Assembly (NCBI GenBank): GCA_025677825.1
Contig: JAIXMO010000040.1
Span: forward strand, 1 to 64,000
Reading direction: 5' to 3'
Origin: Helicostylum pulchrum
Taxonomy: Eukaryota; Mucoromycota; Mucoromycetes; Mucorales; Mucoraceae
Length of the DNA stretch: 64,000 nt
The position numbers and the translations under genes are program-made. The notes below the pieces were generated by a model. That model saw only the letters and a program-made list of their open reading frames with translations. It was not told the origin of the DNA and ran no database searches. Below, in pieces: positions 52,936-62,233 of the stretch. Every line of letters starts with the position of its first letter. Positions within the stretch are counted from its first letter, which is position 1.

Positions 52936-54578
52936 ATGTCAAGAGGAAGTGTTTCACATAATTACGAATATATATCAACTTATTCAAACGTTATTCAACA
53001 AATAGTACCAGAGTAATATAATACACTCTCCCCCCAATAAAAAGCATACTTACCTTTTATTTAGTCGGTTCGTTCTTAAAATTCGCCAACAGCCTATTCA
53101 AACCAGACTGAGTACAACAAATGAAAGAGGTAATAAATACATATAATGGCGCATAATTTTCTTAAAAAAATAAATTTCTAGATCGAAGACCATTAGATCC
53201 TCCTCCTATTGTTCAAATTGAACTTGATCACTCTACTCCACAAGAGACGCAGTAAGTTTTTTTTTTTTTAAAAAAAAAAAGTTAAAAAAATCGAATTAAT
53301 AACTTTTATTTCAGAGATTTCTTGCAAAACCCATATCTCTTTATGTGTGTATCACTTATTCATCCAACAACACATGAAGAAATACTTAATCCAGCTCAAA
53401 ATACATTGTCAGGGCAATCATCATCCTCCATGTATAAATTAAAAGATATAAATAACCACGGTAATAATGACATAAAAAAAGTCATATTATACATGTAATT
53501 TTCTGACATATTTTATTTTAGATGGTGGATTCTTTGTGTTTGGAGACGTCTCTGTCAAATTAGAGGGCCAGTTTAGACTTAAATTTTCCATGTTTGAAAT
53601 TTCTAAATTAGGTGCAACCAATTTGAAATCAATTTATTCAAATGTATTTCAAGTATTTGCTTCCAAATCATTTCCTGGCATGCTAGAATCTACCTTTTTA
53701 TCTCGTTCATTCTCTGACCAAGGTGTTAGAATTCGAATCAGAAAGGAACATCGAGTTCAAATGTAATCAAGAAAACCCCAACCCCCTCTCTTCTTTAAAA
53801 TTCATGCCATCAAAAAGTATATTAACCACTTTTTTTGTTGTGTAGGACTGGTTCTCGTAAAAGAAAACTATCTTCACAAGGTGAACCATTAGAATTAGAA
53901 GATAGGTCTTCTTTCCTTCTAGATCGATCTCATCGGATCTACAATCAACAGTTCATTCAACCGCAACCATCTTTAGTTTATACCCAACAACGTCATTGGC
54001 CTCAAGAAAACCCCTATGATAACAGAAGGCACAGTACGATGGTATCTTCCAGCGAATTCAATGTACCTAATACTGGTATACATCATTTGTCTCATATAGA
54101 TCGCCGGCCCAGTATCCCTTTCTCACCTCCTCATCAATCCTATGATTCAAGTAGGATGGTAATGAATTCCAGTGAGTATAAACCCCACTATCCAATGAAC
54201 TTGCACCATCGCAACAACACCATTCCTTCGCCACCACCCCAAACACCTTTATTTAAACCAGAGCTTCGAAGGTTAAGTTTTGATGATACCTTGGCGTATC
54301 AAGCCAACCATTCGATAAGAAGACTGTCTGCTGACCCTCATTTTTATCATTACCGTCGTCGCAGGGACTCGGTTCGACAAGCCTCACCCGCAGCTAGACA
54401 ATCTGTGACTGAAGTCATTCATTTACCTCCTTTACGTTCAATTGTTTCTGAAAACACTATGTCTGTATTACCTAAGCATCATCATTATACGCAAGATGGA
54501 ATCGGCGAAGTAGATGCTGCAGTTGCTATGATGCAACTGGCTTCAAGACGCCAAGCTGAAGCTAAAGTTAATTATTAA
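52936..54578 (+). CDS. Velvet-domain transcriptional regulator
   Basis: Fungal regulator of development and secondary metabolism; the velvet domain is related to the Rel/NF-kB fold and binds DNA or other velvet proteins. Six exons: 52936-53012, 53065-53129, 53182-53251, 53315-53460, 53522-53762 and 53846-54578; 443 residues. Domain marks in order: [76 protein letters not shown] and IRIRKEHR. A long C-terminal tail follows, rich in His, Pro, Arg and Ser ([30 protein letters not shown]). It most resembles the VelB/VosA group, but I would not fix the subtype. Exon 1 ends at GA|GTAATA, chosen by phase. Confidence 0.92.
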
Positions 54579-55050
54579 TATCTATTTCTTCTTATTTTTA
54601 AAACGTATGGATGTACAGTTTCTTCTTTTTCTTCAGTTCCTTATATGGTTTTTTTCTTCCTTTTTTACATTTTATTTATTTAATTTTTTTTTTATACACA
54701 TATTTATGCAAATTCTTTCAGCTTCCCTCTCTCCTCCCCCTTTTTTTTTTGTACAGAACGAATCACCCTTTTTTTTTAATATAAACTGATAGTCTTTTAT
54801 TTAAACCCGATATCATTACCCGTTTTTACTATAGTTTTTTTTTTTGCTGCACATTGATAGTCTTTGACAAGTTAAATGTTTTAACAACGACCTTTTTCTT
54901 TTTTTTTTAAAAAAAAATTATGCAGAAAAAACTTTGACATTGTACCTTTATGCGTCTTTTCAAAATAACCCGTTTTTCTGTCTTAGAAACGTCATGTCTT
55001 TTTTTTTATTACTATTACAAAAAAAAAAAACGGCATCTTTAAAGGATAAA
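54579..55050. other. Convergent intergenic region
   Basis: 472 bp of T-rich DNA on the + strand between two 3' ends. Nothing coding. Several T8-T10 runs may serve 3' end formation of both genes. Confidence 0.45.
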
Positions 55051-55919
55051 CTAAATAAGATCAGATTGTCTATAAGCATCTGATATAATCGTAATAATAA
55101 TATTTAAAGGCGCTATAAATGTCGGTAAACTTTTTCGTAATTTAATACATTCTCTGGACAAGTCTCTTAAAATAGCAATATTCTTTGATATTAGCACAGG
55201 GTCCAAGTAAACTAGCAGTTCAAATATACGAGCAAACTATATAAAAATAGCGTTTAAATAACAGGATTGTAATTCATATGCGTAGCATAATTTTTTTTTT
55301 TACCTGGTCTTCTTTATTTTCGTACTTGTTTAACCATTCAATATGATACTTTAATATCCTTAATATAGTATGCTAATGCAGTAATTATTAACAAAAAAAA
55401 AACACGTCAAACATATAGATATTATTTACCTGAGATAAAGTTGGAATAATCGAAACTTTATCTTCTTTTGCATACAAGATCGAATAAGCTTCTTCAATCG
55501 ACGTAATTTCTTTATGTTGTTTTAAACTTTTAGCTTTTTGTTTACACTTTTGATACGATTTAAATGTTTCAATGTATCCTTTTCTCCAATTTTCGCTAGG
55601 ACGATTCTTTTCATCTTCATTATTATCGTTAAAAAATTGAAAGTGACTAGGTAACTGTACTTTTTTAAGTACTTGAGGATGCGGTGCAACCACTGTTTTA
55701 GCACATTTTTTGGCCTGTTGACTTTTTTTTTAAAAAAAAAAGTTAAAACACAAAAATAGACTTTTTTGTTGTTATTATTCATTACCGAACAACTAGTAAG
55801 TAATCTTCACCTGAAAGTGGAATCCCATTAACGAGATCAGGTTGTTGTTTACTAAGTGGAATCGCTCCTTTTGAGTTTTCTTCTTCTGTAACCACTTGAG
55901 AAAATAATCGTTTCGACAT
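55051..55919 (-). CDS. Gemin2-like protein (SMN complex / snRNP assembly)
   Basis: Scaffold that holds Sm proteins during assembly of spliceosomal snRNPs (animal Gemin2/SIP1, yeast Brr1). Four exons: 55786-55919, 55430-55721, 55304-55372 and 55051-55236; 226 residues. Conserved marks are PLSGEDYLLVVRQQAKKC with TVVAP just after (the family has DYLxxVRxEAxxxPxVV), the helical EAYSILYAKEDKVSIIPTLS, LKYHIEWLN, and a C-terminal LVYLDPVLISK with LRDLSRECIKLR. An in-frame ATG exists 84 bases upstream (56003), but it adds a basic, hydrophobic stretch unlike the family, so I start at 55919. It diverges from the hAT-derived gene with 228 bp between starts. Confidence 0.82.
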
Positions 55920-56147
55920 TTTCAAGTAAAAAAGGCAAAACAAAGGAGGGGAGAATAAATTTTCTCTCACTCTCACTCTCACTTTCAAGTGACGTTGTGT
56001 CATACGCTAATTTTTTGTTTTGATAAACAATCTCTTTTTTTTCTTTTGTCTCCTTCTTTTTTTTTTCCCATACATTTTTTTTTCTCTTTTTCTTTTACTT
56101 GTCAACACTCCCTCTCCCCCCTTTCACTTCCGTAAAAAAAATAATAT
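55920..56147. promoter_or_regulatory. Bidirectional promoter between Gemin2-like and hAT-derived genes
   Basis: 228 bp separating two divergent start codons. It contains a CTCTCACTCTCACTC repeat and several T runs, and must serve both genes unless they use 5' UTR introns. Confidence 0.5.
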
Positions 56148-59100
56148 ATGTCTAGAAAGATAAAGAAAAGGGTACCACGGGTTATTGTACACGACTCTGG
56201 TAGTTCTTCCGACGCAGACCCAGAACCAGTTACGGCAACCGAGCCATACCGTGTTTCCAGTATATACTTTGACTCGGACCCAGATAACATGTCTTTATCT
56301 AGCGAGCACGTCGAACCAGCGCAATCCACACCACCTCTGGAAAATACTACACGTAAAACCGACACTGACAACTATACCATATCACAACTTACTGATCCCA
56401 TCTCAAAATACTGTATCACAAAACAAGGTCGACTGTACTGCAATTTCAACCCTAGTGTAACCAACAACCGAGGCTGTCAAACCGATTTCGCCAATAACGA
56501 ACTCTCGAAATTCGTATCTCACCTCAACTCATTTCACGGTTGTAATATAGCTGAACGACCACACTATGACGATGATAAATCAGAAAGTTCCATTGATAAG
56601 TTCTATTCTCCTTTCAACGTAGCTGAAGATTACCCAAAACACGACTTGGCTTTAGCTGGTACCCTCACAACAGAGACTGATAATGAACTTTATAAAGATA
56701 ATACCAATGATGATCCCGATTTATATCTTGAAAGTGTTTTAAACTCGTTTTTAAATCTTGACGCAGAAGAAATTTCGAATGTAATTGAAAAAGAAACTTT
56801 TATGTCACAGCAACAGCAACAACAGGATAATATGCCGTGGCCAAATGACGCGATGAAAAGTACAACAGTGTCATTATCTCAACTGGAGTACATACAATCT
56901 ACTGCTTCGTCTCCTAATACCGCTTCTCCTTCCACGACTGCTTCTCCTCCTGCTACTACTGCGCAACCTGCTACTACTACCGTCGAACCTAAGAAATCGA
57001 ATTCTGAACCCAAAAAAATCCGAAAGCCTCTTATCTCGCGAGTCACACCAAAAGTCCTTCGAAGTGTAACACGCCAAAGCGAAGAAGAGCCCAAAAAACC
57101 AATTACTAATAAACGAAAGTCTGCAAGACAGGAACTCAAAGCGCAACCAAAACCCAAACGAAAATTACTAGCTTCTCCAAAAAAGAAAGCCACTGAAAAG
57201 CAAGTTACGTTTGGATCAGAGTCTTCTTCTTCTTCTTCTTTGTATAATACTACTTCGTCAGAAAGTACTCCCGAGTTATCAAAGAGACCATCTCGGTGTC
57301 GTATTATTAAGCCTTACCCTGCGGCGGCGTCAGTGGATAATCAACAAACACCGTTTGAGATGAATGGAGATCATCAGATTTATAAGTTTATGGGTCAATT
57401 TGATTCTACCAAGAAACAAGCAAATACTACACTTATCTCTGCCGATCCACAAGACGAAGCAGCAGTAGCAGAAAAAAGAGATGATACAGGACCAGGTACG
57501 GAATCGCGGCAAGTCATCCCGTCTATACCAACCGATGGACTCTGGCCGTTTGAATTCGGGTACGGATTCTTTATGAAGCAAAAGTACCACTGCAACGTCA
57601 CTCGATCTTCCGGATTTGACGGGTGTAAAAAGACTTTTGCCAACCGTTCGGTTTTTATTCAGCACTTGCACCACGCACATCACCTAGACGCATCCAACGC
57701 CATGAGCAGCCGAGAATCCGAAGAAGACAACCTGCAAGAAAAGATTATTGACATGCTGATTTCTGCCTGTTTGCCTTGCAGCTTTGTCAAAGATAAGAGG
57801 TTTTTAAATATGGTGAAGTCAATTCAAGAGACTTCCGCAGGCCAACAGATTATACCTACCTTGCAAGAGGCCGAAAAATTGATGCAACTAACCTTTGAAA
57901 AACGTCAAAATCAAATAAAAGCCTTGTTGCAAGAGCAAGACCATATTTCGTTTTCCGTGCACACATTCCATCCTCTACATCATGCGGACGATGTTATGGT
58001 TGTGATCACGGCCTTCTTTATTGACACGGACTGGAGGATCAAGGAGCTCGTGATCCAGTTCAAGACCTTGGCTAGTAACGATACTTTAAGTGTCGTGGTT
58101 GAATCTGTATTCATCGAAACCGTTCAGCAATTTGACATTGCGACCAAAATCTATTTGATCGTGTCTCCTGATTTCCCAACCTTGAACTCTCATGTGTGTA
58201 AAGTCGCGCCTGTCAAGTTCCAGATCTCTGCCGATATTTCAAAGCCGGTGGTGATGCCCTGCTTGGACCAGGTGATACAGCTTTGTAAAACGTGTTTGTG
58301 TCGAAACGTGGATACTTTATTTGAACCCCTCTACAAGATCATTAGCTTCAAGGCCAAGATATGCATTTACAGCTGGAAGGGCGACGAGTCAGTGAATATT
58401 TCAAAAATCGTTAATTTCAGTAAAAATACTTTTTCAAGTTCCTTGGATTTATTAAAGGAGTTTATGACGATTGCAGAAGAGTATAATGGTGTATGTTTTT
58501 TAAATACAAGGTATGCTTCGGATAGTATCGGTCGTGATGAAATAATGAAAATCGAAAGGCTTTTAAAAGCTACAACGACTTTGGATGAATCGTATGAGTG
58601 GTTAATTGAAGCAACGTAGGTATTAAAAAAAAAATTATTTTTTTATGTATTTATGTCAAACTGAACTTTTTATTATTATTATTGTAGAAATCAAAGATAC
58701 CCAGCAACAAATAAAACTCTATTGATATACATGGAAATTTTATACGCCTTGTACCAACTCGCACAATGCTACGGCTGTAAAGAAGAATCCGATATACTTT
58801 ACGAAAAGATTTATTCATCTGTACCATCCGAAACAGGCATGATTGAAAATATCAATAACGCGTACGCAGCGGTAGTCAAATATCGTATCCTGATGGAAGG
58901 CTCAGATGAAAACCCAGCTTGGCAAGCAGTGATTTCAGACCCTTACTCGTTCAGTATGTATAATGCGCGCAAACAATATTATGCGGAACCCAAGGAAATG
59001 ACCCCGTTTTTATTTTCGAGCGTTATCAATGATGCTCAACATACCATTTCGTCAATTGAGTTGCAAGCAATTGAATTAAAAAACTATATTTCTAATAGAG

Positions 59101-59638
59101 AGAAACTTGCTATATCTGCTCAACTTGAAGTAACCAATCCATTAGAAAAAAGGTATGCACATATATTTATTTATTTTCAAAAAGAATAGCAGTTAACAAA
59201 AAAAAAAGTATTAGCCTGGCGGACGACTCATTGTCAGACTTTAAAAATATGTTGCAAGCATTTGTTGGCTCTCCAGAATCTAATTTACAAATTGAACCAG
59301 GTAAAAAAAAATTATAAAATACCACAAGAAAAAAAAAAACTCAATACTCTATTATAGATAATAATAGTACCATGTTAACACATTTATTAAACCACACTCC
59401 AAACAACTTTGGTCTATTAAATTTCTGGAAGGAAGCACGTTCAAATGATTATCCACGTATTAGCGACTTAACCAAACAATGTTTCGCAGTACCCATCACC
59501 TCATTCGAATGTCTTCATATGGCTGAAGAAGCAGAAGATTACTATTCCGGTATAGCCTATCTGTTTCCCAAAGCAACCACAGAAGAAAACCAACGAAGAA
59601 CATTGTTTTACATGTGGCAAAAGTACATTGATTTTTAA
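56148..59638 (+). CDS. hAT-transposase-derived protein with BED-like zinc fingers
   Basis: Four exons: 56148-58615, 58688-59152, 59209-59300 and 59358-59638; 1101 residues, phases closed and no internal stop. Residues about 97-135 (CNFNPSVTNNRGC...HLNSFHGC) and 478-512 (YHCNVTRSSGFDGCKKTF...HLHHAHH) look like two BED/C2H2-type fingers. Between them is a basic Ser/Pro-rich linker. After them come hAT landmarks: LISACLPCSFVKDKRFLNMV (usual PF..V...F), FIDTDWRIKELVIQF, and at the C-terminus a hAT dimerisation region, LLNFWKEARSNDYPRISDL with VPITSFECLHMAEEAEDYY. The usual S-x-T-x-D-x-W catalytic block reads SFSVHTFHP, so the first Asp seems lost. No terminal inverted repeats are evident. Probably a domesticated transposase acting as a DNA-binding regulator. 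Confidence 0.78.
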
Positions 59639-59650
59639 TTATTTTTTTTA

Positions 59651-61028
59651 TTAAAAATCTTGATAATCTTCATCTTGTAAAATTTCCACCCTTCTATCTT
59701 CATCATCATCACTTGATTCTGGTTGCTTTATTACTGGTTTCACTTTACTTGATTTCTTTTTCTTTTTCTTTTCTTTTTTCTGTACTTGTTCCTCTTCTTC
59801 TTTTTTCGGCACTTGTTCTTCTTGTTCACTTAAAAATTGATCCAAGTCTCCTTTACCTTTATCGATTTCTAATTGAAGTTGATCCAGTGATGTAGTTACC
59901 GTATCCACATTATTATTACCTGTTTATTTTATTATTATTAGCAACACAGTAATAAATATATTTATATAAAAACGTCATATTTACCAGAGTATAAGGATGA
60001 AACTTCATTTTCTCTTTTCCTTTTATACTCTTCAAGTTCAGCATTGAAATTCGCTTCATAAAGTTCAACCTTCTTTTGCTTTTGTATCGTATCGTATTCT
60101 TCATACTGCTGCTTTAACCTCGATTCCTTTTCTCGTAACAATCCTCTCTTTATTTTCATTTCTTCCATTAGCTCTAATTCTTTTGTTTCTTTCCATAACT
60201 CAAATTCTCTTTTTTCATGGTCGACTGATATATCGTCAATTTGTTGTTCTAAATTACATAAAACCTTCATCAATTGCGCTACAAAAAAAGGGGGGGGGGG
60301 GAGGGGAATTAACATTGGTTCACTTCATTTTTTCTGGTTTTTTTATATATACCTGTAGAGTCTTGAATTTGGTTCAAGTTGGATTGCATATCTTTCATAT
60401 CCGTTGAAACATTTTCCATTTGATCACAAACTGTATAATGAGCCTGACCTGTCGATTGTAATTGTCGTAGTAATACATCCGCTGTCTATTTAACCATATG
60501 AGTTTAATTATCCTCCTCTTCTTTCAGTGAATACATATTACCTTTGCTTTTTGAAAATTATCTTGATTATTTTCGTGTATTGTGTTCCAACCTTGGTGAA
60601 TTTTTTCAATAACTTGTGTAGTTACTTTCAACTCTGTTATTGAAGATTGGGTCGGTGTTGTTGGTATCGAATCGCTTTTTTTTTAACAAAAAAACAAAGA
60701 GTTTAGTTGATTTGAATCTTTTAAAAACTAATTGTTGTAATATTTACGTAGAGTTTTGTCGGCTGAGAAATATAGAGTTCAAGTTTGAAAATTCACTTTT
60801 TAAAGCTTCTAACCTACACGTAATAAAGATTAACTTTTTTTTGAAAAAGCAAAAGATGAATAATACCTTTCAACACCTCGGTTCCATTCTGTATCGTTGA
60901 TCCTGAATATACGTTATAAACCTGCTTTTGAAAGAATAAACAGTATATATACCTTACCCAACTGACTCGCTAAGTGAGCGTATATTAAGAGACGTACTAG
61001 GGAATATACTTTTAAACTGTTGAAACAT
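59651..61028 (-). CDS. Dysbindin-like coiled-coil protein (BLOC-1 subunit)
   Basis: Seven exons: 60958-61028, 60867-60902, 60748-60813, 60542-60674, 60353-60485, 59985-60278 and 59651-59919; 333 residues with all phases closing. The start MFQQFKSIFPSTSLNIRSLS is followed by helices (EKIHQGWNTIHENNQDNF), then a long coiled coil with the dysbindin pattern: LEQQIDDISVDHEKREFELW, KKVELYEANFNAELEEYKRK. The C-terminus is DTVTTSLDQLQLEIDKGKGD, then Glu/Lys-rich. Animal dysbindin has the same order: helical start, coiled coil with KLKERQKFFEEAF-like block, acidic tail. BLOC-1 acts in endosome to lysosome-related organelle traffic. The assignment is from layout plus one good block. The gene converges on the hAT-derived gene with 12 bp between stops. 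Confidence 0.65.
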
Positions 61029-62233
61029 GACTATATAAAAAAAAAATCCGAGAAAAAATAAAAAATAAAACCCTCCCTCTTTCACTGCTTCATGCACCCT
61101 GAAAGCGATCTTTAAAATAAAGGACTGTGTAAAAAAAGTTAAATAAGCGCCGCATGAGTGAGTTTGCCATGTTTTAGTAGGGATCATTGATCCAAGACCT
61201 TTTGTCATAAACACATTTTAAATAAGCTTAGTACATACTTTTTTTAATTCTTAAAAAAAAAGAATCGGTTATTGGATTTATATTACCAGCATTAATAAAC
61301 CAGAGCGGTAAATCCGGTGGAAAGTTTCTATACTTGATGCCAGGTATCAATTTTATCCTTCACAGGTTTTATTTTTGAAAGTTTACAATCTTACTATAAT
61401 TTTTATAATTGATCTATTATTTCCTTATCAATGGTTATTTTATTACGGCAAAGCGCTAGCAATTATAAGGAAAAGCAGAGTGTTTTTTTTTTTTAAATTT
61501 TTCAAGGCAGGTAAGGTTGGACATTTTACTTTGGTACACGTTCTATTTACACGTTCAGCAAAAAAAAAAAAAAAAACGGTATTAGTTTTCGCTTCATCCA
61601 AGTAGTACAACAAAGGTAGCCTGCTTTTGGTACAACAGTAGACGGTTTTTTTTAAAAAAAAAGGACTAATCCTTTTTTATTAAAAAGATTGTACAAATTC
61701 AAATGTCCAACCCTCCCTAACAATTTGTTCCTTACTTATCCACACGTCTACCTAAAAGCGGTACTAAAAAAAAACTCATGTACTACTTTGTCATCTTCAT
61801 TCTAACCTTTTACTTCTTTTTTTTAGAGCTGGAAATAAAAGAAACTAGATGTGTAGGTTAATTGTTTATCAGTAAACCTCCCCCTCTCCCTTCCATCACA
61901 TCTGTATTCGATACTTGATAGTTTGTCGATTTTGATCCAAACAAAGTTTAACAAACAAAAGAAAAAAAAAAAAAAAGTTGGCTTAAACAGGTATTAAATT
62001 GTGTTTCGTTCTTATTTTTTTTATGGAAAAATTTTTTTTCCCTGCGACCAATTTGATTTTTTATCCAATCGGTGGCCACTGATTTGATGTTGCATAATCC
62101 AGGGCCCTATTTATATCGAAGGGAGCGAACCACTTAAAAAGTATATATGGTGTCTTTTTCCCCATCTATTTCTAAGTCTGTGGGTTAAAAAAAGGGCAAA
62201 TTACTTTATCTACACACATAGTGGCGATAACAG

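Follow-up and report, generated by a model that had tools for sequence, protein, structure and literature searches.

Plants, animals, and yeasts already provide well-documented host genes derived from hAT transposases. In animals, the ZBED proteins are hAT-derived DNA-binding host proteins, some of them multi-fingered, whose BED fingers follow the spacing C-x2-C...H-x3-5-[HC]. In flowering plants, DAYSLEEPER is described as a domesticated DNA-binding hAT protein without the residues required for transposition (PMC3499209). Among fungi, Kat1 is reported as a domesticated hAT protein that retains DNA cutting, its DDE mutants being inactive (PMC4763223). Our searches of the open-access PMC literature aimed at fungi found no domesticated hAT protein from Mucorales. 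Here we describe a hAT-derived gene of Helicostylum pulchrum at positions 56148–59638 of the window, a 64,000-nucleotide stretch of contig JAIXMO010000040.1. We favor, with a probability of roughly 0.7, the reading that it encodes a domesticated, non-cutting DNA-binding multimer that would regulate host genes or chromatin in the manner of DAYSLEEPER.

The gene lies on the forward strand and comprises four exons with a single open frame of 1099 residues plus a stop. The first-pass annotation had the uninterrupted four-exon structure right; its length of 1101 residues is corrected here. All three introns (72, 62, and 57 bp) are bounded by GT..AG, in keeping with its description of them as clean, and the splicing is backed by P0001, a deposited Thamnidium elegans protein of 1116 aa that is 74% identical and aligns across all four exons. 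Exon 1 (56148–58615), delimited by the open frame, splice sites, and alignment to P0001–P0006, encodes an N-terminal KRVPRVIVHDSGSSSDAD motif, finger 1, a long low-complexity linker with TPKVLRS, finger 2, and the start of a putative RNase H-like region. Exon 2 (58688–59152) continues the open frame through the later hAT body, with a RYPATNKT block and a part matching the insertion domain. Exon 3 (59215–59300) is defined by open frame, splice sites, and alignment to P0001, and exon 4 (59358–59638) encodes the hAT C-terminal dimerisation region. The protein deposited for H. pulchrum itself (P0002, HPULCUR_002603, 823 aa) is near-identical to exon 1 from a different start and stops where exon 1 reads into an intron stop; the locus thus exposes a deposited model without the last three exons (2–4), which are present in both the window and Thamnidium. 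Together, the P0001 alignment and the deposited P0002 are two sources backing the hAT-derived gene model. The orthology search suggested at the outset yielded P0001 as a full-length orthologue and P0003 as one covering exon 1, placing orthologues in other species, as expected of a domesticated gene. P0001 also carries the precomputed label PF27041.1.

The gene is closely flanked on both sides. Upstream, a divergent intergenic region (55920–56147) separates it from a minus-strand gene, one exon of which matches PF04938 SIP1 at 5.4e-8 in a profile search; the ATG-to-ATG distance is exactly 228 bp, in agreement with the shared divergent promoter with a Gemin2-like gene proposed earlier. Downstream, an apparent convergent gene (59651–60324, minus strand) has its stop 12 bp past the 3' end; it is Lys/Glu-rich and coiled-coil-like, with a weak AP3D1 profile match under its cut-off. 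Little space is left for transposon ends between the neighboring genes.

The same genome (G000) holds hAT transposases with which the window protein can be compared. C27 (L009:208-3323, minus strand) and C58 are copies with the usual motifs and a long-spaced finger missed by the BED profile, and C121 is a further fragment of this type. A second hAT family is represented by C89 (L025:3341-5163, minus strand), which retains FTCDAW, TADS, CFGH, and TRW motifs, and by C46 (L010), a piece with internal stops; neither of the C89 frames tested matches any Pfam model at E ≤ 1. Beside the C27 element, frames at L009:3818-4432 (minus strand) resemble by eye a Tc1/mariner-type transposase. In both C27/C58 and C89, the finger, putative RNase H-like blocks, and C-terminal region follow one another as they do in the window protein. 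The joined pieces of C27 match the Hermes transposase in the PDB (best E 1.2e-10), and a search of the window protein against PDB sequences found no transposase (best E 0.86).

Residues 456–1099 of the window protein align locally with C27 at a score of 128 (z 12.7; reversed control 38), where 500 shuffles average 44.8 and peak at 71. Against C89, a separate transposase, the score is 114 (z 13.4; reversed control 38), and 500 shuffles average 39.1 with a maximum of 67. The alignment is collinear with both of these motif-bearing transposases, and the reversed controls stay at background. In block-by-block comparison with C27 (300 shuffles each), the finger gave a z of 8.3, the stretch to the first core strands 9.0, the exon 2 RYPATNKT block 5.9, and the exon 4 C-terminal block 4.9; the block around the second Asp, at z 1.5, does not by itself exceed chance. 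Furthermore, hhalign against the C27/C89 pair gave P 4.3e-8 and probability 94.9 (1.2e-5 and 3.6e-5 against each singly), with an alignment spanning the finger to CxxH only. The AlphaFold models of P0001 and of residues 522–823 of the window protein were too low in confidence for use (mean pLDDT 35.8 and 38.1); a structure comparison with the first model, itself too poor as evidence, showed no transposase among the 50 matches listed. Pfam backs the C-terminal region only, and marginally: Dimer_Tnp_hAT (PF05699) scores 21.5 bits on the window protein against a cut-off of 21.4, which is marginal alone, and 13.4 bits, under the cut-off, on P0001. Run over the H. pulchrum genome, the same profile picks out four places, namely C27 and C58 (73.1 bits), C46 (45.4), and the window gene (24.5, DNA translation). 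Matches to the FOXP-CC, Y1_Tnp, Ran_BP1, and zf-met profiles were rejected, each being under its cut-off.

It might be argued from the marginal Pfam score and the unusable AlphaFold models that this is a C2H2 protein resembling hAT by chance or convergence. Such a reading is hardly credible, since the protein is similar along its full length, and in the same order, to two distinct hAT transposases, and neither the reversed nor the shuffled controls rise above background. The C-terminal landmarks named in the first-pass annotation are likewise in place, with the FWK..YPRISDL block present and VPITS starting at residue 1051, alongside homology to the same-genome transposases far above chance. 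On these sequence comparisons, hAT ancestry of the window gene is well supported.

We then compared the catalytic positions with Hermes, in which D180, D248, R318, W319, and E572 are named essential (PMC6027215); H268 of the CXXH motif is named in PMC4763223. In the PDB search alignments (numbering offset by +76 from chain 4d1q to full-length 8edg), D180, R318, W319, and E572 align with TTDLW, RW, and SER of C27. Whereas C27/C58 and C89 retain TTD/TCD, CxxH, RW, and, in C27, SER, the window protein has these replaced. The usual S-x-T-x-D-x-W block indeed reads SFSVHTFHP, as first noticed: in SVHTFHP (residues 603–609; 57954–57974, plus strand), His605 occupies the D180 position, as assigned by alignments, hhalign, and pattern. 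His stands at this site in all five sequences that reach it (window, P0001, P0002, P0003, and P0006, with window and P0002 being one species), P0004 and P0005 stopping short of it and falling outside the count. By the same three approaches, PCLDQ (residues 704–708; 58257–58271, plus strand) corresponds to CxxH with Gln in place of His268, and CLDQ is found in 4/4 sequences that extend there. The R318-W319 pair is Thr761-Phe762 in the window protein and TF, SF, or KF across the alignments, being replaced in each of the four sequences reaching it. At the E572 position, in exon 4, lies Leu1059, with Leu, within PITSFEC(L), in both sequences that extend so far. Around the second Asp the alignment shifts by one residue, leaving D675 at or beside the position.

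The window protein therefore lacks the DDE triad, CxxH, and RW pair of a functional transposase, the second Asp being ambiguous. Given D675, the alignment points to replacement of the first Asp and the Glu, and replacement of all three acidic residues would go beyond it. The cutting center has probably been lost. Because the distant relative P0006, 37% identical over the compared stretch, also has His in place of the first Asp, the comparison suggests that this loss is old. Might the protein still cut DNA with other residues, as a domesticated hAT enzyme akin to yeast Kat1? Kat1 offers a fungal precedent for continued cutting (PMC4763223), and D675 may occupy the second-Asp site; but the alignment places replacements at the D180, H268, R318, W319, and E572 positions alike, and activity is reported lost in Kat1 DDE mutants (PMC4763223), making an active enzyme highly improbable.

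At the N-terminal side, two separated C/H fingers were recognized by pattern. Finger 1 (residues 98–130; 56439–56537, plus strand) has the spacing C-x11-C-x14-H-x4-H, and finger 2 (residues 482–512; 57591–57683, plus strand), which gives the z of 8.3 against the C27 finger, reads C-x10-C-x12-H-x4-H. As the first-pass annotation had it, a long linker lies between them, of more than 300 residues. Its description of the fingers as BED-like stands in part: a separated pair is found by pattern in 7/7 family sequences, window included, with C-x7 to C-x11 Cys spacing, but this is not canonical BED, and a Pfam search with the BED profile PF02892 found no match in either the window protein or the C27 finger exon. 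The two fingers are also common to three more distant exon-fragment relatives. The gene reveals a type of hAT finger missed by the Pfam BED model. The C27 transposase has the long Cys spacing of the window fingers (C-x8-C), with one such finger found as against two. Aligned with each other, finger 1 and finger 2 score 51, whereas 500 shuffles average 22.9 and reach 42 at most; given this resemblance, duplication of the transposase finger would be the simplest origin of the pair. The C27 transposase, and seemingly P0004 and P0005 too, share an intron placed directly behind the finger; it was not counted toward any conclusion, since the intron of P0006 seems to lie elsewhere.

A further pattern, KR[VI]PxV[VI]V[HN][DE] followed by a Ser/Asp stretch, occurs at the N-terminus of all seven family sequences, the stretch in P0002 starting at R; in the window protein it covers residues 7–24 (56166–56219, plus strand). 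We take this motif to resemble a phospho-SUMO-interaction motif. The linker motif TPK[VL]LRS recurs in six of the seven by pattern. A candidate N-terminal degron of beta-TrCP type (DSGxxS) was set aside, not being common to all relatives.

Conservation among the relatives, which are represented by proteins, is uneven and was used as a proxy for purifying selection. Of the 13 regions compared, finger 2 ranks first in conservation in all five comparisons, with identities of 59/63 (P0001), 61/63 (P0003), 45/63 (P0004), 41/63 (P0005), and 34/60 (P0006). The corresponding values for the linker are 66/136, 88/124, 35/113, 35/143, and 29/131, and finger 1 is weakly conserved in P0006 (11/44). The global alignment used for these regional identities misplaces the N-terminal motif of P0005 (5/27) and P0006 (5/24), in which the pattern search finds it.

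When the 32-Mb H. pulchrum genome was searched at the protein and DNA levels, this locus alone was found among the best candidates scored; the reading frames of weak matches on L019 (C136) and L022 (C35) showed these to be C2H2 genes, and they were set aside. In the flanks (54500–56147 upstream and 59639–61500 downstream), five inverted-repeat pairs bracket the gene, where three shuffles gave 7, 1, and 8; no candidate pair has matching 8-bp flanks as target duplications. The first-pass annotation had reported a lack of terminal inverted repeats and had set against its own reading the prospect of many near-identical copies with such repeats and 8-bp duplications; the former agrees with our counts, and of the latter we found one locus with no repeats above chance. 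Could the gene nevertheless be a recently immobilized or decaying hAT copy without host function? Its ancestry and the fragmentary hAT copies elsewhere in the genome, such as C46 with its stops, would fit. Yet a decaying copy is very unlikely to have kept a four-exon open frame with a full-length orthologue, conservation that peaks at finger 2 in 5/5 comparisons, a His at the first-Asp site that recurs in a distant relative, and a single locus with no inverted-repeat pair above chance. Collinear homology, catalytic replacements common to relatives, one copy without terminal repeats, and the full-length orthologue favor instead a host gene built from a transposase, as originally proposed.

What such a host protein acts on admits another answer, in which it works against transposons without cutting DNA: it would bind the ends of related hAT elements, or enter dead multimers with their transposase, and so repress them. 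The genome does hold hAT elements: C27 and C58 have a similar finger, that of C27 being like finger 2, and other copies have usual motifs (C89). That finger 2 stays so strongly conserved in diverged relatives, however, points to an unchanging target and not to an arms race with elements that change, and we regard the antagonist as unlikely.

Returning to the domesticated regulator, we propose the following putative history. In an ancestor shared by Helicostylum, Thamnidium, and some more distantly related lineages, a hAT transposase gene of a type still in this genome would have been recruited by the host. The finger of this gene, with its unusual long spacing, would have been duplicated, and a long disordered-looking linker and the conserved N-terminal motif gained, while the cutting center was presumably lost (D to H, CxxH to CxxQ, RW lost, and E to L). 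The product is most likely still nuclear, DNA-binding through its fingers, and multimeric by way of the hAT body and the C-terminal region; it would control host genes or chromatin and leave DNA uncut. The sequence itself shows descent, the duplicated finger, the replacements at catalytic positions, the one copy found, and conservation; nuclear location, DNA binding, multimerization, and regulation we infer, and a role as a transcription or chromatin factor is probable from the architecture and the analogy with DAYSLEEPER. More tentatively, and rather doubtfully, the duplicated finger pair together with the SUMO-interaction-like motif might recruit SUMO-dependent silencing to fixed host sites or related hAT elements, as a regulator old within Mucorales.

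In summary, if the protein is a regulator, the locus adds an early-diverging fungal case to the known domesticated hAT genes, and the question becomes what its duplicated fingers bind. Animal ZBED proteins are likewise hAT-derived and may carry several fingers, but belong to a separate lineage and have C-x2-C rather than long spacing. Kat1 of Kluyveromyces lactis, as described in PMC4763223, is also a domesticated fungal hAT protein with an N-terminal finger and a C-terminal region; however, it retains DDE and CXXH and cuts DNA, whereas the window protein has the first Asp, the Glu, and the CxxH His replaced. The closest likeness is to DAYSLEEPER and the SLEEPER genes of flowering plants, described in PMC3499209 as hAT-derived host genes with an N-terminal zinc finger and a C-terminal dimerisation region, without transposon ends and with transposition residues missing, as in the window gene. 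SLEEPER has one BED finger, in contrast to the two non-BED long-spaced fingers and linker of more than 300 residues in the fungal protein, and there is no reason to treat the two as one domestication event.
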